Below are positions 13,010 to 61,748 of a DNA stretch of 64,000 nt, piece after piece. Source of the stretch: Imbricaverruca yamaguchii (taxonomy: Eukaryota > Arthropoda > Thecostraca > Neoverrucidae); the NCBI GenBank assembly GCA_034440575.1, contig JAOTOL010001475.1, positions 1,087,001 through 1,151,000 of the forward strand, written 5' to 3'. The translations under genes were made by a program, and so were the position numbers. The notes beneath the pieces were generated by a model, which saw only the letters and a program-made list of their open reading frames with translations, searched no databases and was not told where the DNA came from. The first letter of the stretch is position 1; each line of letters opens with the position of its first letter.

Positions 13010-13370
13010 ACGGTGTGACACGGGGCCGAGCTGTACGTCTGTGACCCGGTGTGACACGGGCCGTGCTGCACGTCTGTGACACGGGTGCCGTGCTGCACGT
13101 CTGTGACGCGGGACCGTGTGACGTTCGGTGTGACACGGGGCCGTGCTGCACGTCTGTGACGCGGTGTGACACGGGGCCGTGCTGCACGTCTGTGACCGCG
13201 TGACGCGGTGTGACACGGGGCCGTGCTGCACGTCTGTGACCCGGTGTGACACGGGGCCGTGCTGCACGTCTGTGACTCGGTGACTACGTCTGTGACGCGG
13301 TGTGACGCGGGGCCGTGCTGCACGTCTGTGACCCGGTGTGACGCGGGACCGTGCTGCACGCGCGTGACGC
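13010..13370. repeat. GC-rich minisatellite abutting the first exon
   Basis: Units of about 34-40 bp contain GGGGCCGTGCTGCACGTCTG and GTGTGACACG. The array ends about ten bases before the acceptor of the first visible GALNT exon, whose pyrimidine tract it has effectively replaced. I see no exon bases inside the unit. Confidence 0.9.
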
Positions 13371-13379
13371 TACCGCCAG

Positions 13380-13546
13380 GTGCCGGGAGCGGCGCGAGTG
13401 GGGTCGGCTGCCCGACACGTCCGTCATCGTGTGCTTCCACAACGAGGCGTGGTCGGCGCTGATCCGGACCGTGCACTCGATCCTGGACAGGTCGCCCGAA
13501 CACCTGCTCAAGGAGGTCATCCTGGTGGACGACTTCTCCGACATGG
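13380..13546 (+). CDS. GALNT: GALNT exon: start of catalytic domain
   Basis: This exon encodes the N-terminal edge of the glycosyltransferase A-type fold. It reads CRERREW, then [20 protein letters not shown], then a helix and the strand ending VDDFSDM. The Cys followed by about nine residues and Leu-Pro is typical of GALNT proteins, and the LPDTSVIV and VDDFSD strands form part of the UDP-binding core. I place the acceptor at AG 13378-13379, so the exon begins with the last base of a split codon. The donor GTCAGT begins at 13547, leaving phase 1. That phase fits the next exon at 48153 exactly. The acceptor has almost no pyrimidine tract, because a GC-rich tandem array ends about ten bases before it; the exact start is therefore less certain than the rest. 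The preceding exon, which should encode the stem, was not found. Confidence 0.93.
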
Positions 13547-16012
13547 GTCAGTGCCGGCGCGGCGGGCCACTGTCGGGTCGTGTTCGGGGGTCGGGGTCGG
13601 GGTCGGGATTGCCGAGTTTGGCCGTTCATGGGTGCGAGGGTGGGGTGAACAGGTACGCATCTTCATGTTTGGAACACAACGTGTACCATATATCTAGTGT
13701 ATGCCGTATGCGTAATGTATATTAGCTTCGGGAAGTATGAGTCTGTGGACCTCAACCTCCGACATCTCGCCTATGGTGGGGTGGTTTCGGCTATTTGTCT
13801 CCTCTCGGAGGATCGTCTGTATCTGCCTCTAGCGGACAACAGTCACATTAACTTAACCTCAGCACAAACTTGGTGACATGACCAGATATCACCGTGTTCT
13901 GAAAACTTGAGTGGGTGCATGCTCACCCTCTCCCTAAGGTTTCCCACAAGCTATGGTAAGGTGGCTCAAATTGTTCTCATCCTTGGTTCAACAGGTTCGA
14001 GAAGAATGGCGGCTATTATGCGCAGCAGGAACCGAATGGCTATTTTCCTCCGCCCTATACGTGTGATTGAGGTAAAACAACTTTGGATTTTGAGAGCCAA
14101 CAACTATGGTACTATGGTGAGAGCTGTGATGCTATTTCAAGAGATGAAAAGGAACTTCGTTCAGAACTAAATTCCATCCAAAACGTATCCTTTTTGGATA
14201 ATGGTCAGAAGCCGTGACTCGTACTTTTCGTGAGATTGAGGTTTGGCGACGACTTCTAGGCCACTTTTAGTGACTGTCGGCAGAGGAAGAAGACAAGTCT
14301 CCTGGACGGCCAGTTCCCCGCGCCTAAATGCCGAAACAAAATTCATTCACGAAAGCACAACTGGGGAACGGTAAAATTCACTTATAAAAGTGTATAACGT
14401 TTATTCATAAAAGAAGTAGCAATCGACCAAGCACGTAACAACTCAAAACTACATAGTTAGTTCCACTCAGCTTAAGCTTCTTCGCAATGTTTATTTGTCA
14501 AGCCTTGCGAAATGCATTCATATCTACAAACAGCGAAAGTCCTGTTTTGTCCTCGGGGTAAGATAAGCTTCAGGTAGTTTTGCTATCCCTGCCTTTGTCC
14601 GTGTGTGGGTGTCACATTCGACGTGCGCCAGAGGTGTTGCCGCGTGTTTGCGCTGTCACCAGCTGGACGGCAGGGGCGACCAGCTTCGGGTATGTATCGT
14701 CTCGTACTGAGACTGGGCGAGGTGGTGTCGTGATTCAGTTTCGGGTATGTATCGTCTTGTACTGGGATTGGGTGTGTGTGTGTTGTGTGTGTGTGGGGGG
14801 GGGGGGGGGGGTGCGAGGACCATTGCCGAGCGGCGGTGCCGTGATTCATTCAGTAGTGGCTGGCGAAGACGTCGGAAGAAAGTGCGGTTATCCGCCTCCA
14901 ATTGGATCTGCAGTGAACCCGACCTGGAAGGTGTAGAAGGGACCCAAAACGAAGAAAATATCCAGGCCGGGGTGGTGTATTGCGGGCACTTCAGCACATG
15001 CCGAAGGTGGAGACCGTCGAAGCAACTGCCACCTATAGTTTGGGAGATACGAGCACAGCTGATTCAAGCCATTCGAAATCTTGATAGTCGTGACCCTGGG
15101 TATGGGACAACATTCGTCTTCAAAATTTGTACCGAGGTCAGAAGGTCAAGAACGTTATTATTTTGGTGGAAGTATTTGGATTTAGATATTAAAGAAAATT
15201 ATGTCCGATAGAAATGTCCCTGCTTTTCCCCCTTTAAGTTCAGAAATGATAATCTGGCCCGATGAACCGTTCTGGTGCACGGTTAATGATGTCTCAAACC
15301 AATCTCAAACCATGGCTGGTTATATTTCTGTGTTGGCACGGTAACTTACATACGACTGAATATGCAGGCTGTTACTTGTATGCAACTGAAGTTTCTTTTG
15401 AAAATGATCAGCGGTGCAACCATGGCGTAGCCACAAATTTTTGGATGCGAGAGAGGACACGGGAGTGGTTTTAAATTGATTCTTTTTGATGCTATGATAT
15501 CATATTAATGCTAAATTTCATGAAGTTAGTTGTTCACATCACCCAAGTGTCGCTCGTCAGTTCTATGCAACGATACAATTAGTTGAAGTTGAAGTCGGGC
15601 ATACAAATGAAGTTAGAAAATATTGTGGACATTTTGATAGCTGTTTTTATGCAATGAATTTTAAGTTTTCGGTGCATTTTATTGCTTTGTACCACGCCCT
15701 ATAGCTCGGTACAAAATGTGCAAACAAATCGTCCCCTTCTGAGATATAGGGTTTTCGATCTTTTGACTAACTTGAAGGAGCCGTTACCATATTTTGTTTC
15801 CTGAAAGACCACATCGAAATGGCCTAGACAGTCACCACGTTTTTGAACAGGACAACTCTACCTAATATCTCCATAGCCTTGGCCCATGCCGCTGGAACAC
15901 ATTTTTTTCATTGGTGCTACCCGTTTGGCTGGCAAACGTGTTCCACCTCTGGATGCATAATTCTCTAATAGGATCAGTGGCCGACCATCCGGCGTTGCTC
16001 ACCTCAGCAACA
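13547..16012 (+). other. Intron 1, proximal part
   Basis: The intron opens with GTCAGT and a short GGGTCG triplication. A two-unit duplication of about 55 bp lies at 14687-14770 (TCGGGTATGTATCGTCT), followed by GT repeats and a run of 17 G at 14795-14811. The rest looks single-copy, with no gene seen. Confidence 0.6.
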
Positions 16013-16168
16013 GGTGGGTAGGAATGCCGACTCTGCGTGGGCCGGCGCCCCCGTGCTGGGAAAGCCCGCCCCCGCTGGCTGCAGGAGCAGCTGGGTAGGA
16101 ATGCCGACTCTGCGTGGGCCGGCGCCCCCGTGCTGGGAAAGCCCGCCCCCGCTGTCTGCATGCAGACA
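16013..16168. repeat. 77-bp tandem duplication
   Basis: Two nearly identical units share GGGTAGGAATGCCGACTCTG and GGCGCCCCCGTGCTGGGAAA, 77 bp apart. Confidence 0.92.
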
Positions 16169-18884
16169 CGGCTGGACAGCCTGATCCCTGCCGCCGCAGT
16201 GGTGCGGTAATTGAATAAATCAGCGCTGCTTTGCGATTCATTTGAAATGCTCTAGCCAATTTTGATATTCTTCGGAAGTTTGTGTTTGCATTTGGGTGGC
16301 TATTCGTGATATCTTGTAGGGTTTAATTTGAAGAAGAAGAAAAATATTTAGAGGATGTGGTCGAACGATCTGGTTAGCGTTGTTTTTCTCGTCTTTGTGC
16401 CACTGTGATGTTTTAAGAAAAATATGTTTGCATATTTAATCATCACTTGTGTGATGAAGATACCATAAAGTCTTTCCACTGACTAATACCATTGTTGTCA
16501 CATCTCAGTCTGCTGAGCTATTTGGGGATATCGTCCGATGCATTGCTTACATCTCGTGACTGGCGCTTTAATGCAGCATATCTTATCACCAGCGTAGCAA
16601 AGTTGTAACAACTTAGCGCATTTCTTGAAGGAGTGAGGAGTCAGATAGTATAATTAATTACACGCGACACTGAAGACACCCACCAGCGCACCTGGTGCGA
16701 CGCCGGCTCTATTACATCCACTACAGCGCACCATAAGCTGCCTTTCCAGCAGAATGTGCACAACTTCCCGAGCATGTGGATTATTTCCCTGAGGCCGTTT
16801 CCGGGCGACGGCAGCTCAGTGTGCCGCGCTGTTTGGCGATGACGACATCATGTTCGAGCGTCTGACGCCGTCCACCAGTCTGCTAACAGCCGCCACCGCC
16901 ATCTCCGACGGCACCGAACACCTGCCACCGCTAGCGCCGCACATGTCACAGGGCGGCCGGCGGTCGCCACACAAATGCCCGCTGAATATTCGCCGACAAA
17001 TTGGCGGCCGGGTCGGAGGCCGCCGGAAGTGTCGACAGGTGGCGCTCGGGCGGTCGCGGTCCGAGCCGGTCGGCCGAGTTCAGAGTCCGAAATGTGGCTC
17101 GAAATCGCGTCGAATTTGATGTGGAAGTGCCATTCCAAAGGAAGAAAGCACAAAAAGCATGTTGGTGCAGCCTACTCAAGATGCTGGCCAATCTCGCATC
17201 GTGCATGCGCATCTATGTCGTGGGTGGGCAATGTGTACTCCCATTATCGGCCAGGTTGACGCCCATTACTTCGAAACATTATCGAACGGCCGCATCTTTC
17301 CATGCCGACTATTCAGAGACGGAACCGAATGAGCGTGCTTAAATAACTCTTTCACCCAGAGACATGGAATGTCGATGCGTAAATTTGAACGTTGCTGTGG
17401 CTCGTGAAAACATACATGCCTTTGGCTGCTTGTATGAGTACCAGACAAATATGATGTGGTCAATTGCATGTTTTCCCGAGTCTTCACCTACCCGCTACAT
17501 CAGGGAAGTGTCGTTCGTGGTATGAAGCGTGCAATTTGTATGCACGAAATTGGTCGAGGCTGGCGTGCTGCGCATTCGATATTTATATCCTCGCAGTACC
17601 GTCTGGTAGAGGTTGTCGGACAGCAAAAGTCAGTGAGGCGCGTGCATGAACTATTCGGTTACCAATGCTAGATATTCAATGTTTATATGTCCGCAGTACT
17701 GCCTGGTTGAGGCTATAGGCTAGTAAAACAAGTGAAGCGCTTGCACGAGCTGTCCGGTTATCTATGTTAGGCAGCCATGTCGGTAGGCGGCTGTCTCTTG
17801 CCGTACACACGCGGTGGCGGAACCATTCATAACGTACACTGGGTAAGGTTGGATGCCGCCCGATAAAATTATGGGAATTGAGGGCGACTGCTGCATTACC
17901 TCCTCAGAGTAGGTGGAGAGTTCGAGGCTATATCAATGTTGGGTCGACAAGGTCTTGGGTCACGAACCTCCCAGACCATTGCCAATTCCCATGACAATTA
18001 CCGTGCTGTAGATGACATTTACATGGATGATTTTGTGGAACCTTGACCTGGTTCGACCTAGCTTGACTGGGAGTTATTTGAACTAGGTCGTGACATTCCT
18101 GGCATCACGAAGGTCATTATGTGTGTATTTGTTGTCGGATATTACTGGAAATGCGGCAACAGCAACAGCATAACCATATTCATGTTCATCATTCATGAGC
18201 TTTTAGTCTGAAGGCTGATATTTCGAAAATTCACCGACCAATCTTAAGCATTCTCGCGCCAAATTAGCACCATTCAGTTTGGCCTGAGAAAGCGAAACTA
18301 GGGATGGAGTACTAAATACTGCGCCTACTCCTCGATGCAGATAGGTATTCGGTGACGGTGGCGTCAGGGTGCGCCCTACCTACGGCAGCCGCTGAAGTCT
18401 GCTCACTTTCCCCAGCATCTGGGGTTGGCGAAGCTCGATCTCACTCTTTGTTGTTCGGCGACACATTCCCACCACGTCGGATCGGTTAGGTGTAATCCCG
18501 TTATGAAATAGCCGGTACAATCTTGCAACAGTGCAATCTTGATTGCGTCAGTATGATCTTGCTCGGTATTTCTTGGTGAGGTTTCAGGTGGCTTGGTCGG
18601 CAAAGCACAATCGTGCGGTGTTGCTCACGCAGCTGACTCGTGGACTCCGGAGAACCTGTCCTACAATGGTACGCTCCGAGTAGTTTGGTCGGTGTGCGGA
18701 ATGTGGTCGGTTTCCTCATATCGTGCTTGCCATGGACACAGCAGTGCCATTGGAAGAAAACTATGTGTGTGCGTTGACACACCGCGGAGTGCGTCGTCGT
18801 TCACAAACCCAGATGACCGGATGGCGTCACACTCGCCACAACTTCGGAGTAATTTGTCGAAACACGCACTCGTGGCGCTCGGAG
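16169..18884. other. Intron 1, unassigned
   Basis: A GC-rich island at about 16690-17120 has open frames on both strands, with no family resemblance. A diverged duplication pairs 17575-17670 with 17675-17765 (CGCAGTACCGTCTGGTAGAGG-like). Nothing else was recognised. Confidence 0.45.
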
Positions 18885-19345
18885 CGCAAACAGTTCCACT
18901 GGTGGATCAGGCCAGCACGCCACTGGACAGGGCACGAAGCGCAAACAGTTCCACTGGTACCAGGCGCCAGGACGGCCACTGACCAGCCAGGACAAGAGCA
19001 CTGAAGGGCTGCAGGCACACACACAGTTCCAGGCCAGACGGCACACTGACAGGCCAGGCCAGGACACTGAAGGGTTGAACAGCCACACAGGCACAGTTCC
19101 ACTGGTATCAGGCGCCAGGACGGCCACTGACCAGCCAGGACAAGAGCACTGAAGGGCTGCAGGCACACACAGTTCCACTGTAGGGAGGAGAAAGGAAAGA
19201 TGAAGGGTGAGGAAATGTAGTCAGGCGCCAGTACGGCCGCTGACGAGCCAGGACCACAAGAGCACTGAAGGGCTGCAGGCACACGATCGGGGGCCAGTAC
19301 GGCCGCTGACGAGTCAGAGCAAGATGACTGAAGGGCTGCAGGCAC
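18885..19345. repeat. Complex minisatellite
   Basis: Higher-order units of about 60-110 bp share AGCACTGAAGGGCTGCAGGC, CAGTTCCACTGGTA and GGACGGCCACTGACCAGCC. An unrelated insert at about 19185-19220 interrupts it. Confidence 0.88.
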
Positions 19346-20350
19346 ACGATCGGGCATTATGAGGCCTGGCTGGCTCGACACACCCGTGCTGGCTGGGCAA
19401 CGCGTCAAGACATAACCTGGTGTCTAAGTTCGGTGGAATTGTACGAATTTCAGAAACCGGTCTGGCTAGTTCGTCACAACTTATTGGAATTTGAGAGCCG
19501 TGCACCATACTCGACAGAGGAGCCCGATTCCGTGCATGGTGTAAGCTACTTCGGCAAAGCAGAATTGAAAACGAGTCCCCTTCAGCCGCGATTCGATGCA
19601 CTCCTGCCCAAATTGGGCAGTCCGCCGAGTATTGTGCATGCGTCTCACACTTGATGCAACATGATGAATCGTCGAAATAGCATATGGAATAGCTGTATGC
19701 GACGGTTGTTCACGTCTCACAGCCTCCCTGCTCAGTTTATGCCACACGCACCCGCTCATCGCGGCATTTTCGCGTCGCCATGGAGACGAATGAGCGCCCA
19801 GTCTCGGGGACGTAGGTCTGGTGGTCTGACTTCACCGCGTGACTGAAGGAAAATGGCAGGTTCTGGCCCGACGGGCGTCGTTTCTCGTTGAAACTCTTCT
19901 TTGAACAAACAATGTGAATAATTAGAAGGAAACATTGTGATAAAAGCTGCTAGAAGTTGATGGTAAAAAGTGACTTCAATTAGCAGTGAACAAATATAGC
20001 CTTGAGGCGCTGTAGCAAAATATAAAACTTACTAAGGTCGGAAAAGCGCGCCTCGTCGTCGTGTTATCGGCCGACCGGTGAGGTTAGGCCCGGTCGGATG
20101 TTAACTGCGCTCCTGACACTTTCGCTCGTCAGGCGCTCCTACAGATAGCATATGCGACGTATCAGATGTGATGTATCGGATGTGACATCAGATGTGTCGT
20201 ATCGGGCGTGGCGTGTCGGATGTGGTGCATCGGATTTGGCGTATCAGTACGACGTCCCAGGCATCAGACAAACGATGGTGCAATTTCCCCACGTGTTGCA
20301 CCTCTCCATCACGGGGTCTATCATACGCCAAGTTGGCGATCAGTAGCCAA
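19346..20350. other. Intron 1, unassigned
   Basis: Single-copy-looking DNA. A short run at 20150-20250 repeats variants of CGGATGTG and TATCGG every 10-15 bases. No gene was seen. Confidence 0.5.
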
Positions 20351-20539
20351 CAACCACGAACGTGGTGGTGGTGGCTATTGGTTTTACGACACGTCGACGA
20401 GAGTCATGTAGCGTCGCCAATCTCTCACGCCGATTGGTCGCGGGCGAAGAGTAGCGACAGGTGAGACTCGAACCCACAATCTTTATATTGTGAGATGGAC
20501 AACTTACCCAAAGACTACTCGTCCCCAACCACGAACGTG
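20351..20539 (-). mobile_element. tRNA-Val-like SINE, second copy
   Basis: This is a reverse-strand copy of the SINE at 3043-3230. The 14-bp flanks CAACCACGAACGTG at 20351-20364 and 20526-20539 are target-site duplications around a 161-bp body. The B box reads GGTTCGAGTCTC on the - strand, and the body shares CGACCAATCGGCGTGAGAGA. The tail is CCACCAC-like where the first copy has AACAAACAA. Different flanks show two independent insertions. Confidence 0.9.
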
Positions 20540-20574
20540 TACGGAGGTGAGAACAAAGTGTGGCAACACTCCGG

Positions 20575-20960
20575 AGTAATGCGGTTGCGGTGCGACGAGT
20601 CCCCAGAGCAGTCAGACTCCAGGGCTGTGATACCCTGGGTGGAGGTACTCCGGAACGGCGAGGTCCCGGCGCTGTGACGTTCCTGAGAGACGGCGTTCCC
20701 CGAGCAGTCAGACTCCAGGGCTTGATGCCCTGGGTGGAGGTACTCCGGAACGGTGAGGTCCCGGCGCTGTGACATTCCTGAGAGACAGCGTTCCCTGAGC
20801 AGTCAGACTCCAGGGCTTGATACCCTGGGTGGAGGTACTCCGGAACGGCGAGGTCCCGGCGCTGTGACGTTCCTGAGAGACGGCGTTCCCCGAGCAGTCG
20901 GACTCCAGGGCCGTGATACCCCGGGCGAAGGTACCCCGGAACGGTGAGGAGCCGGCCCTG
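20575..20960. repeat. 95-bp minisatellite
   Basis: Four units at 95-96-bp spacing (GCAGTCAG at 20608, 20704, 20799 and 20894) share GCAGTCAGACTCCAGGGC, GGTGGAGGTACTCCGGAACG and GACGTTCCTGAGAGA. Confidence 0.95.
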
Positions 20961-21161
20961 TAACACTCAGTCGATGCGCCCTAAAGCCCTAATAACTAAC
21001 TAACTGTGGCACTCCGAAGCGACGGCGTCTCCTGAGCAGTGAGACTGGTGAGAGGCGCCGCTCCGGGGTGAAGGTCCGGCTGCGGTGATCCCCTGGGCGG
21101 CTGCCGTGTCGGCGTCGGCGTCCACAGCTGAGTGGGAACTCGGCCGACGGATGCTGTTCCC

Positions 21162-21330
21162 GTGACCGTGACTGTGACCGTGACCGTGACCGTGACCGTG
21201 ACCGTGACCGTGACCGTGACCGTGACCGTGACCGTGACCGTGACCGTGACCGTGACCGTGACCGTGACCGTGACCGTGACCGTGACCGTGACCGTGACCG
21301 TGACCATGACCGTGACCGTGACCGTGACCG
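21162..21330. repeat. (GTGACC)n hexamer array
   Basis: About 28 near-perfect hexamers, with single changes at 21172 and 21305. It reads Val-Thr on + and - alike, giving false proteins. Confidence 0.98.
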
Positions 21331-26205: not shown

Positions 26206-26236
26206 ACGTATGTCGGCTGTGTTTGCTGAATTCACG

Positions 26237-29349: not shown

Positions 29350-29362
29350 ACACGCGCACACA

Positions 29363-31320: not shown

Positions 31321-32647
31321 CACGCGCCCTGGAGGGGGGCGAAATCCGCCCACCCCTCCGGTTTTTCGTAGATAACTCCAGATTTTACCGGAAGATATAC
31401 GCAATTGTTTATGTACCTGCTAATAAATGACCGGCGTTGTTTAAAGTAAGAAAAATGAAAATCGACCGAAAATTTTTCGAGTTAGGGATCGTTAGGTAAA
31501 GTAAAAAAAAATTATCAGCGTCAGACCACAAATATCGGCGCTGATGCGCCTCCCGTATATTAGCAAAAAGGAAGTGTTCTTGGCAAAACTAGCGACTTGT
31601 TTGATGTTCATTGTCATGCTACATTGTTTCAAAGTCATGTTAAGTCACCGAGGTCAAGTCAGGTCAAGTTCACGACAGGTTAACAAACGCCCTGGAGGGG
31701 GCATGGCGAAATCCGTCAACCCCTCCGATTTTTTGTACATAACTCCATATTGTACCGGCCGATATATGCCACATATTTTGCGTACCTGCTTAAAAATGGC
31801 CGGCGCATTGTTTAAAGTAAGAAACAATTAAAATCGGTCGAAAAGTTTTCAAGTTAGGGGCCGTCAAAGTAAAAACAATTCGCAGCGCCACACCACAAAA
31901 ATCGGCGCTGATGCGCTTCCCGTATATTGGCAAAAGGGAAGTGTTCTTGACAACACTAGCGACTTGTTTGATGCATATTGTTATGCTATATAGTTTAAAA
32001 GTAATGTTAGGTCGCCGAGGTCAAGTCAGGTCAAGTTCATGACAGGCTAATGGAACCAAACTTGGTCAACTGGAATGTGTCATAAATGCAAATGACTGTC
32101 ATGCGATTGATGTCACTCTACATGTTACTCCCTATACATCCCGAAATCTACTGTTTATAATTATGTGCCTAAGCATTTCCATACTTTATTCATGTATCTC
32201 ACTCCTTTCTTTGCGGAACCGATTGTGCCAAGCCACCCAACGGAGCAGTCGGGTTGGGAGCCCGGTTCCGGTAACTGGAGCAGGTAATGACCTAATAAAG
32301 TGCCCCTATATAGGTGGCCTGAGGTCAAATGGTGGATCTGACATCTGTATTGCATCATTAGTAATGTCCGAAACATCATTAATGCTAATTTTGGAGCATT
32401 TAACCACAATCACAGCGATCCATAACAATTACAAGCCACGCAAAACCGGAAAATTGTGTTATTTTGACCTCATTTGACCTTGATGATATTGATCTAAGGT
32501 CATGAACTTTGCACACAATGGAGTTCACTATCGTGCCCATCCACCCTGCAATTTCGTTGCTCTAGCCTTCATAGGAGCTGAGATCTTAGGGGGCGGAATC
32601 TGCCCCCCTCCAGTGTGCGTTGTTTCTAGAGGCCCTCCAGGGCGCGT
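31321..32647. mobile_element. Candidate non-autonomous DNA transposon with 16-bp TIRs
   Basis: CACGCGCCCTGGAGGG at 31321-31336 is perfectly repeated in inverse at 32632-32647. Both ends are flanked by TTAG (31317-31320 and 32648-32651), a likely 4-bp target-site duplication. The left part holds a tandem duplication of about 363 bp (31325-31687 and 31688 to about 32050) that begins with the inner part of the terminal repeat. A further inverted near copy lies inside the right end at about 32591-32620. No transposase is present. The superfamily is unknown. Confidence 0.72.
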
Positions 32648-38695: not shown

Positions 38696-40573
38696 CACAC
38701 AGCCAGCCACCACAGCCAGCCACCACAGCCAGCCACCACAGCCAGCCACCACAGCCAGCCACCACAGCCAGCCACCACAGCCAGCCACCACAGCCAGCCC
38801 ACCCACAGCCAGCCAGCCACCACAGCCAGCCACCACAGCCAGCCACCACAGCCAGCCACCACAGCCAGCCACCACAGCCACAGCCAGCCACCACAGCCAG
38901 CCACCACAGCACAGCCACCACAGCCAGCCACCACAGCCAGCCACCCACAGCCAGCCCCAGCCAGCCAGCCAGCCACCACAGCCACAGCCAGCCACCACAG
39001 CCAGCCACCACAGCCAGCCACCACAGCCAGCCACCACAGCCAGCCACCACAGCCAGCCACCACAGCCAGCCACCACAGCCAGCCACCACAGCCAGCCACC
39101 ACAGCCAGCCACCCACAGCCAGCCACCACAGCCAGCCACCAACAGCCACCACAGCCAGCCACCACAGCCAGCCACCACAGCCAGCCACCACAGCCAGCCA
39201 CCAGCCAGCCACCACAGCCAGCCACCACAGCCAGCCACCACAGCCAGCCACCACAGCCAGCCACCACAGCCAGCCACCACAGCCAGCCACCACAGCCAGC
39301 CACCACAGCCAGCCCAGCCAGCCACCACAGCCAGCCACCACAGACCAGCCAGCCACAGCCAGCCACCACAGCCAGCCACCACAGCCAGCCACCCACAGCC
39401 AGCCACCACAGCCAGCCACCACAGCCAGCCACCACAGCCAGCCACCACAGCCAGCCACCACAGCCAGCCACCACAGCCAGCCACCACAGCCAGCCACCAC
39501 AGCCAGCCACCACAGCCAGCCACCACAGCCAGCCCCCACAGCCAGCCACCACAGCCACCACAGCCAGCCACCACAGCCAGCCACCACAGCCAGCCACCAC
39601 AGCCAGCCACCACAGCCAGCCCCCACAGCCAGCCACCACAGCCAGCCACCACAGCCAGCCACCACAGCCAGCCACCACAGCCAGCCACCACAGCCAGCCA
39701 CCACAGCCAGCCACCACAGCCAGCCACCACAGCCAGCCACCACAGCCAGCCACCACAGCCAGCCACCACAGCCAGCCACCACAGCCAGCCACCACAGCCA
39801 GCCACCACAGCCAGCCACCACAGCCAGCCACCACAGCCAGCCACCACAGCCAGCCACCACAGCCAGCCACCACAGCCAGCCACCACAGCCAGCCACCACA
39901 GCCAGCCACCACAGCCAGCCACACAGCCAGCCACCACAGCCAGCCACCACAGCCAGCCACCACAGCCAGCCACCACAGCCAGCCACCACAGCCAGCCACC
40001 ACAGCCAGCCACCACAGCCAGCCAGCCAGCCACCACAGCCAGCCACCACAGCCAGCCACCACAGCCAGCCACCACAGCCAGCCCACCCACCACCACAGCC
40101 AGCCACCACAGCCAGCCACCACAGCCAGCCACCACAGCCAGCCACCACAGCCAGCCACACCAGCCACCACAGCCAGCCACCACAGCCAGCCATCACAGCC
40201 AGCCATCACAGCCAGCCACCACAGCCAGCCAACACAGCCACCACAGCCAGCCACCACAGCCAGCCACCACAGCCAGCCACCACAGCCAGCCACCACAGCC
40301 AGCCACCACAGCCAGCCACCACAGCCAGCCAGCCAACAGCCAGCCACCACAGCCAGCCACCACAGCCAGCCAGCCACCACAGCCAGCCAGCCACCACAGC
40401 CAGCCACCACATCCAGCCACCACAGCCAGCCACCACAGCCAGCCACCACAGCCAGCCACCACAGCCAGCCACCACAGCCAGCCACCACAGCCAGCCACCA
40501 CAGCCAGCCACCACAGCCAGCCACCACAGCCAGCCACCACAGCCAGCCACCACAGCCAGCCACCACAGCCAGC
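38696..40573. repeat. 13-bp array of 1.9 kb
   Basis: About 140 units of CAGCCAGCCACCA, with occasional deletions and single changes. There is almost no T on the + strand. The 13-bp period cycles through all frames, so both strands show false open frames of more than 600 codons. This is the longest array in the window. Confidence 0.99.
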
Positions 40574-46560: not shown

Positions 46561-47511
46561 GAGACTGGGACTGAGCGTGTGTAATCCCATGTAGCTTGCT
46601 GTCGCTGAACGGATAGCTTTGAATTAATATTTTCATATCTGTAGGTTCATTTCAGCTTCTCAATATGCACATGCGTTTACTCGTCCGTTTGGTTTCTTGC
46701 TGAATGAATGGATGCTCACACGAGTGGGTAGATGAATGGATAATGTGATGAACGTGTGACTAACAAACATCGGCTCAGGAATCCGATTACAGACCTTACA
46801 GGATTTGCCGGGTATCACAAGCTCGGCTGCTGCTCTGGCGGTGCACGGGATCTTACTGAGCGCCTCCAGCCGTATATGGAAGACAACCCTCTCCACATGT
46901 CTGCACAATCTCCGGGCCACTGATGCCTGCTGCACGACACTCGCGCTGGCTTGGTTCATGCCCTGCTAGCCGCTCGGCGTGCTGAAATTGATTTTTTTGG
47001 GGTGGAAGGGAAAAGGAGGGTGATGTCAAAAATGGCAACCGATGTAAAGCAATGTGGAAATGTAATACCGATTTTGAGTGAATGCTCTTGTGACGTTTTT
47101 CGATTGCATGATGATGGTGCTGGTGTCAGTGTGTCCGCTGCCTTTGTCAATCAGGGAAGTGCCACCCCAAATAATACGTGCTTTTTATCACTGAAATATC
47201 AGCCATAACGCTGAATAAAAATCAAGCGTAACTCGGTGATGTCAAAAAGCTATGTGAATGTGATCGGCATTAAGTGTGGTAGTCCACACAAATTTTACAA
47301 ATTCAGTACAATGCAGCCGCCCTCACCATTTCTACCCCTCGTTCTAACCGTGGATGATAATCCATCGTTGATAACCGTGCACGCCGTTTGTGCCGGATCT
47401 CATCCTGAGTCGTGCCGATGACCTGGCCACCTTACCACTGCTCGAACGGCAGCTGGTGTCTGGCCGGGTTTTCTCACGCACCTGCCTGCACCAGTTTGCC
47501 GTGCGCGTGTC
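46561..47511. other. Intron 1, unassigned
   Basis: No gene was seen. A diverged duplication occurs at about 47020-47060 and 47230-47270 (GATGTCAAAAA, then ATGTGAATGTGAT-like). Confidence 0.5.
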
Positions 47512-48118
47512 TGGCCGTTTCCTGACCACCTCCGTGGTGTGTCTGGCCGTTTCCTGACCACCTCCGTGGTGTGTCTGTGGCCGTTTCCTGACCACCTCCG
47601 TGGTGTGTGTTTTTGTGTTCTGGCCGTTTCCTGACCACCTCCGTGGTGTGTCTGGCCGTTTCCTGACCACCTCCGTGGTGTGTCTGGCCGTTTCCTGACC
47701 ACCTCCGTGGTGTGTCTGTGGCCGTTTCCTGACCACCTCCGTGGTGTGTCTGGCCGTTTCCTGACCACCTCCGTGGTGTGTCTGTGGCCGTTTCCTGACC
47801 ACCTCCGTGTTTCCTGACCACCTCCGTGGTGTGTCTGGCCGTTTCCTGACCACCTCCGTGGTGTGTCTGGCCGTTTCCTGACCACCTCCGTGGTCTAGCC
47901 GTTTCCTGACCACCTCCGTGGTCTGGCCGTTTCCTGACCACCTCCGTGGTGTGTCTGGCCGTTTCCTGACCACCCGTGGTGTGTCTAGCCGTTTCCTGAC
48001 CACCTCCGGTTGCGTGTGTCTAGCCGTTTCCTGACCACCTCCGTGGTGTGTCTGGCCGTTTCCTGACCATTTCCATGGTGTGTTTTGCCGTTTCCTGACC
48101 ACCTCCGTTGTGTCTGTG
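47512..48118. repeat. 32-bp minisatellite just before exon 2
   Basis: About 18 units share GGCCGTTTCCTGACCACCTC and CGTGGTGTGTCT. The array ends about 35 bp before the exon at 48153. The unit is rich in pyrimidine runs and contains CTGAC, which resembles a branch-site core, but it does not copy the exon. Confidence 0.96.
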
Positions 48119-48152
48119 ACCGTGTTTGACGCCGCGTCTGGACCGGTTTCAG

Positions 48153-48317
48153 CGCACGTGGGCGCCCAGCTGGACCAGTACATGGCCCAGTACCCTCGTG
48201 TCAAGATCGTGCGCACCTCCAAGAGGGAGGGTCTGATCCGAGCTCGCCTGGTGGGCGCCCGCCACGCGACGGGCGCCGTGATCACATACCTGGACAGCCA
48301 CTGCGAGTGTACCGACG
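48153..48317 (+). CDS. GALNT: GALNT exon: DSH metal-binding motif
   Basis: The exon completes the split codon from the previous exon and reads [14 protein letters not shown], then [20 protein letters not shown], then [25 protein letters not shown] and the DxH motif are hallmarks of the family. Asp and His of DSH (48293-48301) coordinate the Mn2+ that holds the UDP-GalNAc phosphates, by analogy with solved family members. The acceptor AG is 48151-48152 after a short TTTC tract. The donor GTCAGT begins at 48318 and leaves phase 1. The donor is the first unit of a 25-bp tandem array whose later units carry the better consensus GTGAGT, so donor choice here is unusual. Upstream, a 32-bp array ends about 35 bp before the exon. 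Confidence 0.97.
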
Positions 48318-48605
48318 GTCAGTTGTGGCGACTGTACGGATGGTGAGTTGTGGAGACTGTACGAATGGTGAGTTGTGGAGACGGTACGAATGGTGAGTTG
48401 TGGAGTCTGCACGGACGGTGAGTTGTGGAGACTATGGATGGTAATATGTGGAGACTGTACGGATGGTGAGTTGTGGAGACTGTACGAATGGTGAGTTGTG
48501 GAGACTGTACGAATGGTGAGTTGTGGAGACTGCGCGGACGGTGAGTTGTGGAGACTGTATGGATGGTAATATGTGGAGACTGTACAGATGGTGAGTTGGA
48601 GCAAC
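48318..48605 (+). repeat. 25-bp array of 5' splice sites
   Basis: The exon 2 donor GTCAGTTGTGG is the first unit of a 25-bp array. Later units begin GTGAGTTGTGGAGACTGTAC at 48343, 48368, 48393 and 48418 and onward, about 11 units in all, with two GTAATATGTGG variants. The unit at 48418 is preceded by ACGGACG, one base from the real exon end ACCGACG. Every regular decoy donor matches the U1 consensus better than the real one. Confidence 0.95.
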
Positions 48606-49220
<615 letters not shown>

Positions 49221-49945: not shown

Positions 49946-52634
<2,689 letters not shown>

Positions 52635-52894: not shown

Positions 52895-53128
52895 CACTCA
52901 CCGCCCGGCTCGGCTACCTTGTGGACTCGTGTCAGTCGTACCGCCCGGCTCGGCTACCTTGTGGACCGTGTCAGTCGTACCGCCCGGCTCGGCTACCTTG
53001 TGGACGCGTGTCAGTCGCACCGCCCGGCTTGGCTACCTTGTGGAGTCGTGTCAGTCGCACCGCCCGGCTCGGCTACCTTGTGGACTCGTGTCAGTCGCAC
53101 CGCCCGGCTCGGCTACCTTGTGGTGGAC
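52895..53128. repeat. ~40-bp minisatellite
   Basis: Six units share CCGCCCGGCTCGGCTACCTT, GTGGACTCG and TGTCAGTCG, spaced 39-41 bp. Confidence 0.95.
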
Positions 53129-53594
53129 TGGCGTCAGTCGAAACACCTCGTGCTTGGCGGTGACCACTATCCGACCCTCGCTGCCAGCCTGTGGTATATG
53201 GTCTGCACTCGATAACGTGTTTGGTGGAACATCAAAATGGACGACAAAACGATCAAGACCCGACAACACTACACATTAAACGGCAAGATATTGATTTCAA
53301 ACCAGAATCCGGAGCGTGTACTGGCGTACACAAAACAAGTCACTGATGTCCACGTTTTCCCCCTGCTCGCTTCTGTTCGTGTGTGTTATCCTAGAATCCT
53401 ATACATTCTAGAAATGACACTAAACGGGAGACGTGGTGTAAAATACATCATCTTGGGGACACTCGTGTGCGATCATCCTCTGTTTGCTCTGTTTCAACTG
53501 GGCATATTTTATGCTCAGTTGAATGAGTTAAGATTATGCATGGCCACACGCGGCCTGATACACTAAGTAGTTGGCGATAAACTTAGCAAAGCCG
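53129..53594. other. Intron 2, unassigned
   Basis: A 109-codon open frame (53237-53566, +) begins MDDKTIKTRQHY. I recognise no family, and it has no supporting splice or repeat context. Probably chance. Confidence 0.4.
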
Positions 53595-53595
53595 A

Positions 53596-54090
53596 CTGGA
53601 GTCGCTCCAGAGCCATTCATGTGGCTGATGACCATGTGGCTGATGACCATGTGGCTGATGACCATGTGGCTGATGACCATGTGGCTGATGACCATGTGGC
53701 TGATGACCATGTGGCTGATGACCATGTGGCTGATGACCATGTGGCTGATGACCATGTCGCTGTTGACCATGTGACTGATGACCATGTGGCTGTTGACCAT
53801 GTGGCTGTTGACCATGTGGCTGATGACCAGGTAGCTGATGACGTCACACCTGGCGCGGCAGGCTGGCTGCAGCCGCTCCAGAGACGTCCATGTGGATGAT
53901 GGCCATGTGGCTGATGACGTCACACCTGGCCCCGCAGGCTGGCTGGAGCCGCTGCTGGACAGGACCTCTCCGGTGACGTCCATGTGGCTGATGACGTGAC
54001 GCCGGGCTCCGTAGGCTGGCTGGAGCCGCTCCGGAGACGTCTCTGTGGCTGATGGCCATGTCCCTGATGACGTACCACCTGGCCCGGCAG
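53596..54090 (+). repeat. Exon 3 acceptor array with nested 15-bp array
   Basis: The region ends with four copies, including the real one, of an acceptor AG followed by GGCTGGCTGGAGCC. Exon-like starts are 53862, 53938, 54015 and 54091 (real), 76-77 bp apart. A fifth, worn copy starts at about 53596 (GACTGGAGTCGCTCCAGAG). Between it and 53862 a 15-bp subunit, CATGTGGCTGATGAC, taken from inside the larger unit, has amplified to about 15 copies (53620-53830). Confidence 0.94.
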
Positions 54091-54239
54091 GCTGGCTGGA
54101 GCCACTGCTGGACAGGATCGCGCTGAACCGGACGACGGTCGTGTGTCCTGTGATCGACGTGATCGACGACAACACGCTCGAGCTGCACTTCCAGAAGGCC
54201 AGCGGCACCAGCGTCGGCGGCTTCGACTGGAACCTGCAG
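54091..54239 (+). CDS. GALNT: GALNT exon: GWLEPLL to GGFDWNLQ
   Basis: With the carried-in base the exon reads [20 protein letters not shown], then [14 protein letters not shown], then a short variable stretch and [16 protein letters not shown] directly follows the DSHCEC block in family members, and the GGFDW strand lines the catalytic cleft. The acceptor AG is 54089-54090, and the donor is GT at 54240 after CAG; the exon ends in phase 0. Three upstream copies of the acceptor plus the first exon bases lie at 76-77 bp intervals (exon-like starts 53862, 53938 and 54015), and three donor-like copies follow at 28-bp intervals. I chose 54091 because only this copy continues into the conserved reading frame. 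Both edges of this exon are therefore embedded in tandem repeats made from its own junctions. Confidence 0.97.
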
Positions 54240-54336
54240 GTAGCCACCTCGCCTGGCGGTAAACCGGGTGGCAACCTCACCTGACCGTACACCAGGTGGC
54301 CACCTCACCTGACCGTACACCAGGTGGCCACCACGG
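54240..54336 (+). repeat. 28-bp array of exon 3 donor copies
   Basis: The donor GTAGCCACCTC at 54240 is followed by GTGGCAACCTCACCTGACCG at 54268, another at 54296 and a last one at 54324. The last two follow CAG, giving complete CAG|GTGG donors. The spacing is exactly 28 bp. Confidence 0.92.
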
Positions 54337-54369
54337 CACACGCTGTCCACGGAGCGACACCACACGCGT

Positions 54370-54560
54370 GCATCAGGCATAGATAGAAGGTAGTGGTGCA
54401 TCAAGCGTAGATAGAAGGTAGCGGTGCATCAAGCGTAGTTATAAGGTAGCGGTGCATCAAGCGTAGATAGAAGGTAGCGTTGCATCAGGCGTAGATAGAA
54501 GGTAGCGGTGCATCAAGCGTAGAAAGAAGGTAATGGCACATCAAGCGTAGTTAGACGGTA
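54370..54560. repeat. 28-bp minisatellite
   Basis: Seven units share GCGTAGATAGAAGGTAGCGG plus TGCATCA. Confidence 0.94.
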
Positions 54561-55204
54561 ACGATGAAAGCTGACCATGCAGAGCGACTAACATGACGTT
54601 ACAAGGTATCGGTGTTAAAAAGGACTTCTTCAAGAGGTTGGCGTGGCTTTCGGCACACTTTCCCAACACATCCTCTCTCCACCCATGAATAATTGGAGCA
54701 GGAATATCGGCTTACAATTTCAAACAGTTTTGTCCTTTAGTCCTAATTTGCCAACAGTTCTGGCAACTTTGTTCCGTAAGGAAGACACTTCTAACGTCCA
54801 TTCCTGAATGGAAATCAACTAAGCTCAATATCGCCGATTGTCCAATACGGCTTGGGTTAGCTAACTTCAGATGCCGAATTGGTGTAATGCAGCAAATGCA
54901 GGCACTTGTCTAAGGATGATGTAAGCTCCCTTAAAGTCGTGCGATGTGCGTCTCTTGAAATGTTGCTGAGATTGCGGGGCATATTCGATATCTGGACGTG
55001 CGTCATCGGCACTATTGGACGGCAATGCACTGTTGCGAGCTGACTATTATTTCTTATGGGGACGGTGACGTGTACCATACACGCCAGGTCAATCCACGGT
55101 AGGTGTTTGAACTCATGGTATGCTTCGCCGGCGCACATATGCCAGTTGCAGAGCACACAACGAATCGATTCCGACAGTTCTTCGACGACCACTTACAGCG
55201 CGCC
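54561..55204. other. Intron 3, unassigned
   Basis: Single-copy-looking DNA with no gene or repeat that I could support. Confidence 0.5.
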
Positions 55205-55797
55205 GCCAGTGTCACGCCAGTGCCACGCCAATACCACGGTAGTGCCACGGTAGTGTCACGTCAGTGTCACGCCAGTGCCACGCCAATACCACGGTAGTGC
55301 CACGCCAATATCACGCCAGTGTCACGCCAGTGCCACGCCAATACCACGGTAGTGCCATGCCAATATCACGCCAGTGCCACGGTAGTGTCTCGGCAGTGCC
55401 ACGCCAGTGCCACGCCAATACCACGCCAGTGTCACGCCAGTGCCACGCCAATACCACGCCAGTGCCACGCCAATACCACGCCAGTGGCCACGCAGTGCCA
55501 CGCAGTGCCACGCCAGTGCCACGCCAATACCACGGTAGTGCCACGGCAGTGCCACGGCAGTGCCACGCCAGTGCCACGCCAGTGCCACGCCAGTGCCACG
55601 CCAGTGCCACGCCAGTGCCACGCCAGTGCCACGCCAGTGCCACGCCAGTGCCACGCCAGTGCCACGCCAGTGCCACGCCAGTGCCACGCCAGTGCCACGC
55701 CAGTGCCACGCCAGTGCCACGCCAGTGCCACGCCAGTGCCACGCCAGTGCCACGCCAGTGCCACGCCAGTGCCACGCCAGTGACAGTCAGTGACAGT
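55205..55797. repeat. 11-bp (CCACGCCAGTG)n array
   Basis: The right half is a near-perfect 11-bp repeat; the left half mixes in CCACGGTAGTG and CCACGCCAATA variants. The 33-bp cycle gives false HASATPVPRQC repeats in several frames. Confidence 0.97.
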
Positions 55798-56589
55798 CAG
55801 TGCCATGATCACGGTGAAGTCAGTGTGACGTTCGCCACGGTTCGGGGACTGATACAGGGAAGGAGGGCGGTGGAGAAGATGCCCTCATTGAAGAGTGGCA
55901 CCCTTCTGGCCTGGAAATGCGCTCTTTCTGTAAGTCTGGAGTGCAACCCTCCCACTTAACAGGTTTTTTTCCAGCCCAAAGCACGCCTCTGCCTTAGTTG
56001 TTTGTGTTTTCATACGATTCTTTCCATATGCATGCTGCAATATGCATACTTTTCATATCCATGCTTCGATATTCATACTTCCATTTGCACACTTCTGTGT
56101 GAATGCTTCCACATGAATACTCCACATGCATACTTTCATATGCATATTGAGATTGTTAATGAAAAAATCACATGCCGTCATCTGACATGACTTTATAAAA
56201 CTGTTGACACCACCTGACCATTGCCTCCGTGTTTTTGATTGTCATCACTATCAAGCGTCAGTGATATCTTGGCTGCCACCTCCGTGTTTCAGATCGCTAT
56301 ATCTATCCGGCATCGGTGATATTTTGATGATATGGGCGGGCAATTCCACCATGTTGCAACAAGAAACTGAGCATATACACCAGCACCCGGGACGGTTGGA
56401 TACAACCAAGCTTGTCTTCCAGATTACCGTTCAGGCGGTCTACCTAACACTCAATAGTTGATTTTCTTTGGATTAATCTGCAGTTTTCAGCTTTGGCAGT
56501 TCAGGAACAAACCACAACTACTAATGTCACTTGGCAAATCGCCAGTTCTACATTTGGCATGAAGGATGTGCCATGGCATGACTACATAT
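55798..56589. other. Intron 3, unassigned
   Basis: A loose run of CATATGCATACTT-like repeats lies at 56025-56150. No gene was recognised. Confidence 0.5.
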
Positions 56590-56995
56590 CCATGAGGGAG
56601 ACTTCGTGGGGTTAAGGGAGACTTCGTGGACGGCGGGGTTAAGGGAGACCCCAAGGGGTTAAGGAAGACTCCGTGGGGTTGAGGTAGATGTTATGGGCTT
56701 GCAGGAGACTCCGTTGGGTGTAGCAAGGCTCCATGGGCTTGAGGGAGACTGCGCGGGATTGAGGGATAATCCATGGGTCGAGGAAGACACTGTGGGGTTG
56801 AAGAGACTCCATATGGTTGGTTAAGGGAGATTGCGTGTTCTTGGGTGAGACTCAGTGTGGTTGAATACAACTCCGTGGGATTGGGGAAGATTTCATGGGG
56901 TTGAGGGAGACTCCGTAGGATTGATGGAGACTCTGTTGGGTTGGGGAAGGCCCCGTGGGCTTTGGGGAGACTGCGCGGGACTGAGGGAGACAATT
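56590..56995. repeat. Degenerate ~20-27-bp minisatellite
   Basis: About 17 units share GGGTTGAGGGAGACTCCGTG with many changes. Older than most arrays here. Confidence 0.88.
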
Positions 56996-58878
<1,883 letters not shown>

Positions 58879-59284
58879 TGTAATATCATATCAACGCAGG
58901 GTCATTTTGAGACCATACCGGGCGCTTCTGGATGCGACTGCGATGAGCATATGCTCATATATCACTTTCCCATACCCGGCCACCGTTGTCTTTGACGTAC
59001 AATAACCAACACGCAGCCAGATAAGTACCAGATAAGTACTCGTATCTCTCACACTAACCGGGCTGCTGCAAACCTGAGGCTGCTAACGTGTTTATGGTTA
59101 CACAAAAAAAAACGATTTACTCCTCCACCATTTAGCTGATGGCGCATGCTTGTACTTCCTCTATTTGGAAAGCACACCACACATCTCTCGATGTAGCTTT
59201 GCAGTCAGCTTCTGGCTGTGCGTGTCTTCCCGTTTGAGAGCCGATGTTTCCCCAGAGGAATTCCCACTGGGTGTGACTAATCTT

Positions 59285-59617
59285 TCAGCCGCCCGACCAC
59301 GTCGTCTGTCCCTCCCAGCCCCCGACCACGCCGTCTGTCGTGTTGCCGCAGTTCAGCTGGCCGACCACATCGTCTGTCGTGTTGCCGCAGTTCAGCTGGC
59401 CGACCACGTCGTCTGTCGTGTTGCCGCAGTTCAGCTGGCCGACCACGTCGCTCAGCCGACCACGTGTCTGTCGTGTGGCAGTTAGCTGGCCGACCCGTGT
59501 GTGCCGTTCAGCTGGCCGACCCGCCGTCTGTCGTGTTGCCGCAGTTGCTGGAGAGGGGACCACGCCGTCTGTGTGTTGCGAGTTGCTGGCCGACCCGTGT
59601 CTGTCGTGTTGCCGCAG
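59285..59617 (+). repeat. Exon 4 acceptor array
   Basis: Units of 39 bp contain GTTGCCGCAG followed by TTCAGCTGGC, the real acceptor and exon start. Intact copies have exon-like starts at 59352, 59391 and 59430. Degenerate units continue to the real junction at 59617/59618. Each full unit also has CCGACCACGTCGTCTGTCGT. Confidence 0.95.
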
Positions 59618-59800
59618 TTCAGCTGGCATCCCATCCCGGAGCGGGAGAAGCGGCTACACTCGCACTCATCTGAGCCGCTGGCGTCGCCCACCATGGCCGG
59701 CGGCCTGTTCGCCATCGACCGCGGCTGGTTCGAGGACCTCGGCACCTACGACCAGGGCTTCGACATCTGGGGCGGCGAGAACCTGGAGATCAGCTTCAAG
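59618..59800 (+). CDS. GALNT: GALNT exon: [10 protein letters not shown] and WGGENLE catalytic segment
   Basis: This 61-codon exon starts and ends in phase 0. It reads [13 protein letters not shown], then [20 protein letters not shown], then [20 protein letters not shown] and a final Lys. [12 protein letters not shown] and the D..WGGENLE block (the Gal/GalNAc-transferase motif, Trp-Gly-Gly-Glu-Asn at 59768-59782) are diagnostic. They form the acceptor-side wall and part of the catalytic loop region in family structures. The acceptor AG is 59616-59617 and the donor GTGACC starts at 59801. The last 300 bp of the upstream intron is a 39-bp array whose unit includes GTTGCCGCAG and the first 11 exon bases, so three close decoy acceptors lie 188-266 bp upstream. 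Confidence 0.98.
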
Positions 59801-60530
59801 GTGACCGTTTCGTGCTGGCTGGCCGCCGGCCGGATGCCGCAGGCGATGTTGGTGACGGTTTGGCTCTGGCAGTGTGACGAGAACAAATGTCTGATAGGGC
59901 TGCCCTCGTGTGGGAATTAATCGAATGTGCTGCGTATAAATTGTGATTACTAAATGTCTCATATTGGGTTGATTCAAAGGCAAGTGTTCGCATGTCTTTC
60001 GGATATGCACGTTTGCTTGTGTTGGCGAATCCTAGCTCCATTAATTATGTTGTTTGGGACCTCGCCATGTGGAGGATGGATGTTTATTATTGAACCAAAT
60101 TTGGTCTTCCGTCCATGAGAAGCGAGACAAACATGCGTATGAGGAGGCCAGACGTATGCCTTGTGATTAGCCTCTCTGTCCATCGTTAGGAAGTTACAAC
60201 TCGCGTTTCTTCAGATATATGAAATGCAAACAAGGCATGACATGTATGACATTGAATAAATGTATTCTGCATGCGTTTATGTGATATATCCCCGTAGTTA
60301 TGGTCGTTAACAGTATTTTGACGGCTTTTAAATGCACAATGATGGATGTTTCATTGGTATCAAACCGTAGATAACCAACTGTATGTGCCTTCACAGTTAC
60401 ATTTTTCCCATCTTTCTTCACATCCTTGACTACCTGACAAGTGTTCCGATCTGCACTTGCCACGTTTGGCAACACGTTTGGCGGTCGGCTGTCAGAGCCC
60501 GGCGACCTGCCGGGCTACTGTGACTCCTCC
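59801..60530 (+). other. Intron 4, proximal part
   Basis: The donor GTGACCGTTTCGTGCTGGC has one near copy 51 bp downstream (GTGACGGTTTGGCTCTGGC at 59852), a possible incipient donor repeat. The rest is AT-leaning single-copy-looking DNA without a gene. Confidence 0.6.
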
Positions 60531-61562
60531 ATGCTGCAGACCTGTGTGTGGCCCGTCAGCCCTGGTGACCTCTCTGGCTCCTGTGACTCCTCCACGCTGC
60601 AGACCTGTGTGTGGCCCGTCAGCCCTGGTGACCTCTCTGGCTCCTGTGACTCCAGACCTGGATGTGTGGTCCGTCAGCCCTGGTGACCTCTCCGGCTCCT
60701 GTGACTCCTCCACGCTGCAGACCTGGATGTGTGGTCCGTCAGACCTGGTGACCTCTCCGGCTCCTGTGACTCCAGACCTGGATGTGTGGCCCGTCAGCCC
60801 TGGTGACCTCTCCGGCTCCTGTGACTCCAGACCTGTGTGTGGTCCGTCAGCCCTGGTGACCTCTCCGGCTCCTGTGACTCCTCCACGCTGCAGACCTGGA
60901 TGTGTGGTCCGTCAGCCCTGGTGACCTCTCTGGCTCCTGTGACTCCTCCACGCTGCAGACCTGTGTGTGGCCCGTCAGCCCTGGTGACCTCTCCGGCTCC
61001 TGTGACTCCAGACCTGGATGTGTGGTCCGTCAGCCCTGGTGACCTCTCCGGCTCCTGTGACTCCTCCATGTGTGGCCCGTCAGCCCTGGTGACCTCTCCG
61101 GCTCCTGTGACTCCAGACCTGGATGTGTGGTCCGTCAGCCCTGGTGACCTCTCCGGCTCCTGTGACTCCTCCATGCTGCAGACCTGTGTGTGGTCCGTCA
61201 GCCCTGGTGACCTCTCTGGCTCCTGTGACTCCAGACCTGGATGTGTGGTCCGTCAGCCCTGGTGACCTCTCCGGCTCCTGTGACTCCTCCATGGACCTGG
61301 ATGTGTGGTCCGTCAGCCCTGGTGACCTCTCTGGCTCCTGTGACTCTGGATTGTGGCCCGTCAGCCCTGGTGACCTCTCTGGCTCCTGTGACTCCAGACC
61401 TGGATGTGTGGTCCGTCAGACCTGGTGACCTCTCTGGCTCCTGTGACTCCAGACCTGGATGTGTGGTCCGTCAGCCCTGGTGACCTCTCTGGCTCCTGTG
61501 ACTCCAGACCTGGATGTGTGGCCCGTCAGCCCTGGTGACCTCTCCGGCTCCTGTGACTCCAG
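60531..61562 (+). repeat. Exon 5 acceptor array, about 18 units
   Basis: Units of about 55 bp read GACCTCTCCGGCTCCTGTGA, then CTCCAG or CTCCTCCATGCTGCAG, then ACCTGGATGTGTGG and CCGTCAGCCCTGGT. The part after the CAG matches the first 14 bases of exon 5 with one difference (TGT for TGC). The last unit supplies the real acceptor at 61561-61562. Each unit has its own short pyrimidine tract and AG. Confidence 0.96.
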
Positions 61563-61748
61563 ACCTGGATGTGCGGCGGCCGGCTGGAGATCGTGCCGTG
61601 CAGCCACGTGGGACACATCTTCCGGAAGCGGTCGCCCTACACGTGGCGCTCGGGCGTCAACGTGCTGCGCCGCAACAGCGTCCGCCTCGCCGAGGTCTGG
61701 ATGGACGACTACAAAAAGTACTTCTACCAGCGGATCAATCACGACCTG
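61563..61748 (+). CDS. GALNT: GALNT exon: [10 protein letters not shown] segment, end of catalytic domain
   Basis: This 62-codon exon starts and ends in phase 0. It reads [20 protein letters not shown], then [20 protein letters not shown], then [18 protein letters not shown] and HDL. The TWMCGG and [10 protein letters not shown] blocks are near-invariant in GALNT proteins, and the His-rich part supplies a further metal ligand. AEVWMDDY closes the catalytic domain before the linker to the lectin domain. The acceptor AG is 61561-61562 and the donor GTGCGT begins at 61749. The next exon, expected to begin the linker, was not found before the window ends. The preceding intron is almost wholly an 18-unit array whose unit carries CTCCAG or CTGCAG followed by a near copy of the first 14 exon bases. 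Confidence 0.97.

Follow-up and report, generated by a model that had tools for sequence, protein, structure and literature searches.

The closest described counterparts of the repeats considered here are the mirages of amphioxus, whose founding paper is reportedly that of Canestro et al. (2002). In the accessible parts of two reports, mirages are described as tandem repeats that run across exon–intron boundaries (PMC3087553; PMC3902484). Their units measure 10–72 bp in Adh3 and 150–160 bp in the globins, two genes of which carry mirages whose edge copies escape homogenisation; Adh3 data and reverse transcription PCR of the globins suggest that splicing is regular (PMC3087553). A mirage with imperfect copies is present in PGBD5, and Adh and troponin C are cited along with it (PMC3902484). 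Here, we describe a 64,000-nucleotide stretch of contig JAOTOL010001475.1 (positions 1,087,001 to 1,151,000; hereafter the window), in which several exon–intron junctions of one PGANT9/GALNT-type gene, probably of an arthropod, lie within tandem arrays. Judged by their sequence, these arrays form a real, well-formed set of junction-spanning minisatellites of a known kind, in an animal group that is probably new for mirages. The original prediction, made from the same DNA, had held that no such class of repeats was described; this claim fails because boundary-spanning repeats had already been published as mirages in amphioxus.

As far as the amphioxus mirages (Adh3, troponin C, BflGb6, BflGb9 and PGBD5) are presented in the available parts of their reports, the present arrays resemble them in having boundary-spanning units at both 5' and 3' boundaries, in the presence of many copied AG and GT signals, and in the position of the authentic copy at the exon edge. 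They differ in belonging to a probable arthropod, in involving four to five of ten junctions of one gene stretch, each with a unit of its own, and in being known from sequence alone. Minisatellites at exon–intron boundaries were also reported in human segmental duplications, with an average unit of 30 bp for gene-modifying repeats; according to the part of that report available, they are variable among paralogs and may give rise to new introns (PMC2812944), whereas in our case only the exon-proximal site, of those tested, suits the reading frame. In the Drosophila cases, as given in the accessible part of the source, a tandem duplication copied a sequence containing AG^GT (here and below, a caret marks the junction), and one exonic duplication creates a new intron, whereas here existing junctions have been multiplied into the intron (PMC2891723). 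Among the titles and abstracts listed by our searches of the open-licence literature, we recognised no further case of junction arrays outside amphioxus and human, which is no proof of absence. The accessible part of a paper on Daphnia tandem repeats makes no mention of splice sites or exon–intron borders (PMC3152781), those of two barnacle papers describe the repeat content as high and say nothing of junction arrays, and that of a paper on prawn lectins with coding tandem repeats mentions exon–intron boundaries for GT–AG and alternative splicing only (PMC7536079). Together with the cases that we found published for amphioxus and human, the window indicates that a probable arthropod, too, has junction-spanning minisatellites, and several of them in a single gene.

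Arrays at the splice junctions of a PGANT9/GALNT-type gene

Five coding exons of the gene were located on the plus strand of the window by the splicing frame and by tblastn with 120 homologs, and all their acceptors have AG and all their donors GT. Numbered as in the original prediction, they are exon 1 (13380..13546, acceptor CCAG^G, donor G^GTCAGT; supported also by the alignment to a protein structure), exon 2 (48153..48317, acceptor TTTCAG^CGCAC, donor GACG^GTCAGT), exon 3 (54091..54239, acceptor CGGCAG^GCTGG, donor CTGCAG^GTAGCC), exon 4 (59618..59800, donor TTCAAG^GTGACC) and exon 5 (61563..61748, donor CTG^GTGCGT). Their splicing in frame yields a stop-free protein of 283 residues. Residues 3–282 of this protein align without gaps to PGANT9 (PDB 6e4r, which we take to be the fly enzyme; E 6.1e-150), and it contains the Pfam domain Glycos_transf_2 (PF00535, E 2.2e-36). 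The domain and the gap-free alignment identify the gene as PGANT9/GALNT-type. No further exons of it were found in the window by tblastn with the same 120 homologs at E up to 1e-3.

Tandem Repeats Finder (TRF) reported 131 rows, which we merged into 59 array loci; these make up 33.6% of the window, and most are located away from exons. Copies of the junctions in register with the arrays were sought by edit distance. Four of the ten junctions, namely the exon 2 donor and the acceptors of exons 3, 4 and 5, lie in an array with 9–28 exon nucleotides per unit, that is, with a boundary-spanning unit made of exon and intron, as in mirages. The fifth array, at the exon 3 donor, has only 3 exon nucleotides in its unit and is marginal in this respect. 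Donors and acceptors are both duplicated, even though among the donors the duplication at exon 3 is weak. By TRF alone, four junctions fall within an array (exon 2 donor, exon 3 acceptor, exon 3 donor and exon 5 acceptor), but it misses the diverged last units of exon 4, which we added by hand from the edit-distance copies; no other array was extended in this way. The original prediction had spoken of four junctions while listing five arrays. Of these five, the four with substantial exon sequence hold, and the exon 3 donor is included with its 3 nucleotides only.

The exon 2 donor array (48308..48644, plus strand; TRF and in-register copies) has a 25-bp unit, TGTACGGATG^GTGAGTTGTGGAGAC. It opens with the real junction, TGTACCGACG^GTCAGTTGTGGCGAC, which constitutes unit 1 and comprises 10 exon and 15 intron nucleotides. 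There are 17 further copies at an edit distance of 4–9, most of them with G^GTGAGT, extending to about position 48861, and the last of them (48841–48861) is weak. They include, farther from the exon, a block of diverged copies that belong to this 25-bp family as well (48697..48830, plus strand; TRF and in-register copies), and TRF detects a 123-bp higher-order period in the array. The exon 3 donor array (54237..54332, plus strand; TRF), with a 28-bp unit CAG^GTGGCCACCTCACCTGACCGTACAC, begins 3 nucleotides inside the exon; it is a weak case, in which the donor is included and hardly any of the exon.

At the acceptors, it is the last unit of the array that is the real junction. The exon 3 acceptor array (53812..54117, plus strand; TRF and in-register copies) has a unit of 76–77 bp, and the junction motif AG^GCTGGCTG(G/C)AGCC recurs in three upstream copies at a spacing of 76–77 bp, which match 17, 26 and 19 of the first 28 exon nucleotides. 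A nested 15-bp array (CATGTGGCTGATGAC; 53618..53842, plus strand; TRF) aligns to the intronic half of this unit, which suggests that amplification may have restarted at one place with another unit length. The exon 4 acceptor array (59320..59626, plus strand) was composed from the TRF segments 59322–59450 and 59472–59523 and from further units found by edit distance. Its 39-bp unit ends in TTGCCGCAG^TTCAGCTGG; the terminal unit contains 9 exon nucleotides, the units nearest the exon are diverged and less regular, and a pattern search found six acceptor-like copies upstream. The exon 5 acceptor array (60513..61573, plus strand; TRF and in-register copies) consists of units of about 55 bp containing GACTCCAG^ACCTGGATGTG, which occur in two forms over about 1 kb, the terminal one with 11 exon nucleotides. 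Upstream of the real acceptor there are 17 sites with the pattern AG^ACCTG[GT], 15 of which have an exon-like continuation.

The remaining junctions gave no such result. A complex tandem array (13003..13368; TRF) ends 11 bp upstream of the exon 1 acceptor, and a 32-bp tandem array (47499..48113; TRF loci 47499–47608 and 47614–48113) ends 39 bp upstream of the exon 2 acceptor. In local alignment, neither junction resembled its nearby array better than 500 random window segments each did: the fraction of random segments scoring as well was 0.35 for the exon 1 acceptor and 0.25 for the exon 2 acceptor, or 0.12 and 0.77 with exon sequence only. As this similarity is within the range of random segments, we rejected both arrays as demonstrably junction-containing. 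Likewise, local alignment against random window segments revealed no significant junction copies for the donors of exons 1, 4 and 5.

Direction of copying and predicted use of the splice sites

The units of the five junction arrays (25, 76–77, 28, 39 and 55 bp) differ in sequence as well as in length, and one spreading satellite as their common source was rejected, in agreement with the original prediction. Four exact junction seeds of 13–15 nucleotides, searched for in the whole window on both strands, were found in their own arrays only, that of exon 2 at the junction itself only, as is characteristic within the window of boundary-derived units and not of a dispersed repeat.

Where the units are exonic, they code for residues that are mostly conserved. 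In GWLEPLL, every residue is kept in 105 to 119 of 118–119 homologs; in TWMC, W and C are each kept in 116 of 117 homologs, M in 99 and T in 69; in FSW, F is kept in 115 and W in all 120 of 120 homologs, but S in only 6; and of the 118 homologs compared at CTD, 108 keep C, 74 keep T and only 6 keep D. This conservation shows that copying proceeded from exon to intron: the coding exons were there before the intronic copies, which derive from them, and every array grew from its own exon edge. The original prediction had also proposed that selection holds the terminal unit, and this fits what is seen, as the exon-side edge of every junction array is the functional junction. For the exon 2 array, we compared 14 aligned copies, leaving out those with indels. 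The functional unit differs from them in a mean of 5.6 of 25 nucleotides, while the copies within the proximal block of 10 differ in 3.6 from one another, so that the exon 2 edge copy seems to escape homogenisation, like those of the amphioxus globin mirages.

Between positions 48318 and 48805, behind the exon 2 donor, there are 13 GTGAGT decoy donors. Scored with a donor weight matrix, at a cut-off of 4 bits, 13 of the 16 other GT sites that exceed this cut-off after exon 2 outscore the real donor GTCAGT. None of these 16 donors gives an in-frame, stop-free reading, and neither does any of the decoy acceptors, the search for which was restricted to the named motifs (0 of 3 at exon 3, 0 of 6 at exon 4 and 0 of 17 at exon 5). 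Since every tested decoy leads to a frameshift or a stop, the exon-proximal sites must be used and the decoys ignored if the predicted protein is made. Such loci put to the test how the spliceosome selects the site next to the exon over a dozen copies that look stronger. They also provide raw material for the gain of introns, and errors in gene models probably arise at them.

Ordinary duplication, chance and targeting at exon edges as possible explanations

We consider it probable that the arrays are mirage-type minisatellites produced by ordinary duplication across splice sites, and that these duplications were tolerated because one copy stays functional next to the exon, under selection. According to this explanation, the genome would make short tandem duplications at a high rate, and some of them would straddle a splice junction. 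The exon-side copy would remain the working junction, held by selection on the protein, while the other copies would fall in the intron, where they would expand, homogenise and decay like any minisatellite. Their turnover would proceed by slippage or unequal exchange, if the arrays are neutral, and the spliceosome would take the exon-proximal copy and pass over the decoys. In the exon 2 array, both the 123-bp higher-order period and the homogenisation of the proximal block fit minisatellite turnover. Duplication at uniformly distributed sites accounts for the kind of structure observed, but random seeding does not easily account for its presence at four to five of ten junctions.

How unusual this number is depends on the null model, and all the statistics rest on one gene, picked after the fact for its oddness. 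Moreover, the count of five includes the weak exon 3 donor, and the strict count of junctions with exon sequence is four. It is possible, at somewhat less than even chances, that the clustering reflects array density by coincidence: where arrays make up a third of the DNA, several of them would happen to touch exons in some genes, and the most striking case would be the one that a scan reports. When each junction was treated as a random present-day base of the window, the probability of at least five of ten junctions falling in arrays was 0.22, and that of at least four was 0.45. Circular shifts gave a mean of 3.3 of ten junctions in arrays, with P 0.27 for five (exon 4 added by hand) and P 0.47 for the four of TRF itself. 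Similarly, ungapped 20-mers centred on the junction had a nearby copy with at least 80% identity at 4 of 10 junctions, as compared with 31% of all window positions, and for 24-mers the corresponding values were 3 of 10 and 28.5%. However, coincidence still needs duplication across the junction to explain the exon sequence copied in the units. Furthermore, if the arrays postdate the junctions, the length to which an array has grown should not count, and the numbers become unusual.

This is the condition of a second null model, in which arrays are seeded at random and then grow, so that only unit length counts. Under it, the probability of at least five of ten junctions was 3.4e-5 to 5.2e-4 and that of at least four was 6.2e-4 to 5.3e-3, with values that varied with the choice of unit. 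We think that this model fits better than the one based on coverage, because the junctions presumably existed before the arrays did. A simulation that excluded any seed lying wholly within an exon or covering more than 30 exon bases gave a mean of 0.29 junctions, with at least four in 1 of 20,000 runs and at least five in none. This result speaks against ordinary duplication as a full account, and purely uniform seeding may be incomplete, in that it under-predicts the number of junctions struck. Three other points weigh on the same side. Within the distal block of the exon 2 array, the 4 copies differ more from one another (6.5) than the functional copy differs from the other units, and the comparison leaves out copies with indels, so that the edge effect is blurred; splicing is predicted, and array length read, from one assembled sequence; and the exon 3 donor case depends on 3 exon nucleotides.

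Alternatively, as the original prediction had suggested, amplification might be targeted at junctions, as if exon edges were preferred starting points of duplication, or arrays might persist there since their terminal unit cannot be lost. The cause might lie in short direct repeats within splice-site motifs (such as CAG^G and GT), in co-transcriptional R-loops or in the chromatin where exons end. The low probabilities under random seeding and the constrained simulation are in favour of this possibility, and so is the presence of junction arrays at several amphioxus genes, as described in the available parts of the reports (PMC3087553, PMC3902484). In addition, 5 of 10 junctions have an array edge no more than 15 bp away (the exon 4 edge being corrected by hand), as compared with a mean of 0.56 over 3765 shifts (P 0.00027, which is roughly what the observed arrangement contributes by itself); when only the edges given by TRF are used, the number is 4 of 10 (P 0.0011). 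Array density within 500 bp of exons is also raised, being 0.56 versus 0.34 (P 0.044), or 0.54 with TRF arrays only (P 0.062). However, edges at exon borders are partly forced, as arrays can hardly enter exons, and the hand correction was applied at one array only and in favour of targeting. The coverage-based tests show nothing unusual (P 0.22–0.47), and five of the ten junctions have no junction copies. The evidence comes from one gene selected for looking odd, and a Pfam scan for other genes as controls, made with 19 open reading frames drawn from the 57 in the window that have at least 100 codons and less than 25% array, gave no match at E up to 0.01. Nor is hairpin potential generally exceptional: among five folded constructs of one or two units, only that of the exon 3 donor surpassed its shuffles (z -3.05), and hairpin-forming units were rejected as a general cause. 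All in all, we regard targeting as rather unlikely.

Equally tentative is the wider proposal that splice junctions are the preferred sites of birth or survival of minisatellites genome-wide in this lineage, and that an exon-pinned unit re-seeds arrays, including nested ones such as the 15-bp array at exon 3. If it were true, intron length and splice-site competition would evolve mainly from exon edges, independently of amphioxus.

It is very improbable that the arrays are kept as functional decoys, whose extra splice sites would recruit U1 or regulate splicing or intronic polyadenylation. The high scores of the decoy donors after exon 2 could be taken in its support, as could the preservation of GTGAGT in the 14 aligned copies, where all 14 have the donor T and 13 agree at each of the remaining positions. 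However, preservation to the same degree (13 or 14 of 14) is seen at several nearby positions of the unit, and three of the five arrays sit at acceptors. Finally, although long tandem arrays are error-prone in assemblies and one amphioxus mirage was aberrantly assembled in the genome draft, according to the accessible part of the report (PMC3087553), an assembly or sequencing artefact is scarcely credible in view of the scattered substitutions among copies, the 123-bp period of the exon 2 array, the unrelated units at different junctions and the intact coding exons.

Other arrays of the window and relatives of the protein

Elsewhere in the window, TRF detected a 13-bp array of about 147 copies (38698–40573) and a 51-bp array of about 27 copies (62265–63617). 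A 367-bp unit is repeated about 1.9 times in tandem at 31338–32050 (TRF), unlike the short minisatellites elsewhere in the window.

The best named relatives of the spliced protein are arthropod proteins (best 120 of 2630 matches). When the matches listed were compared over one shared block of 159 residues, Amphibalanus, a barnacle, ranked first with 79.9%, and the next had 76.4%. These matches point to an arthropod, perhaps a barnacle, as the probable source of the gene. One annotated barnacle homolog (P0061, Amphibalanus amphitrite) lacks exactly TWMCGGRLE, the nine residues that open exon 5 (window positions 61563–61589), and it is the sole homolog of the 120 flagged for a gap at the start of this exon. 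This gap may be a gene-model error at a difficult, repeat-ridden acceptor.

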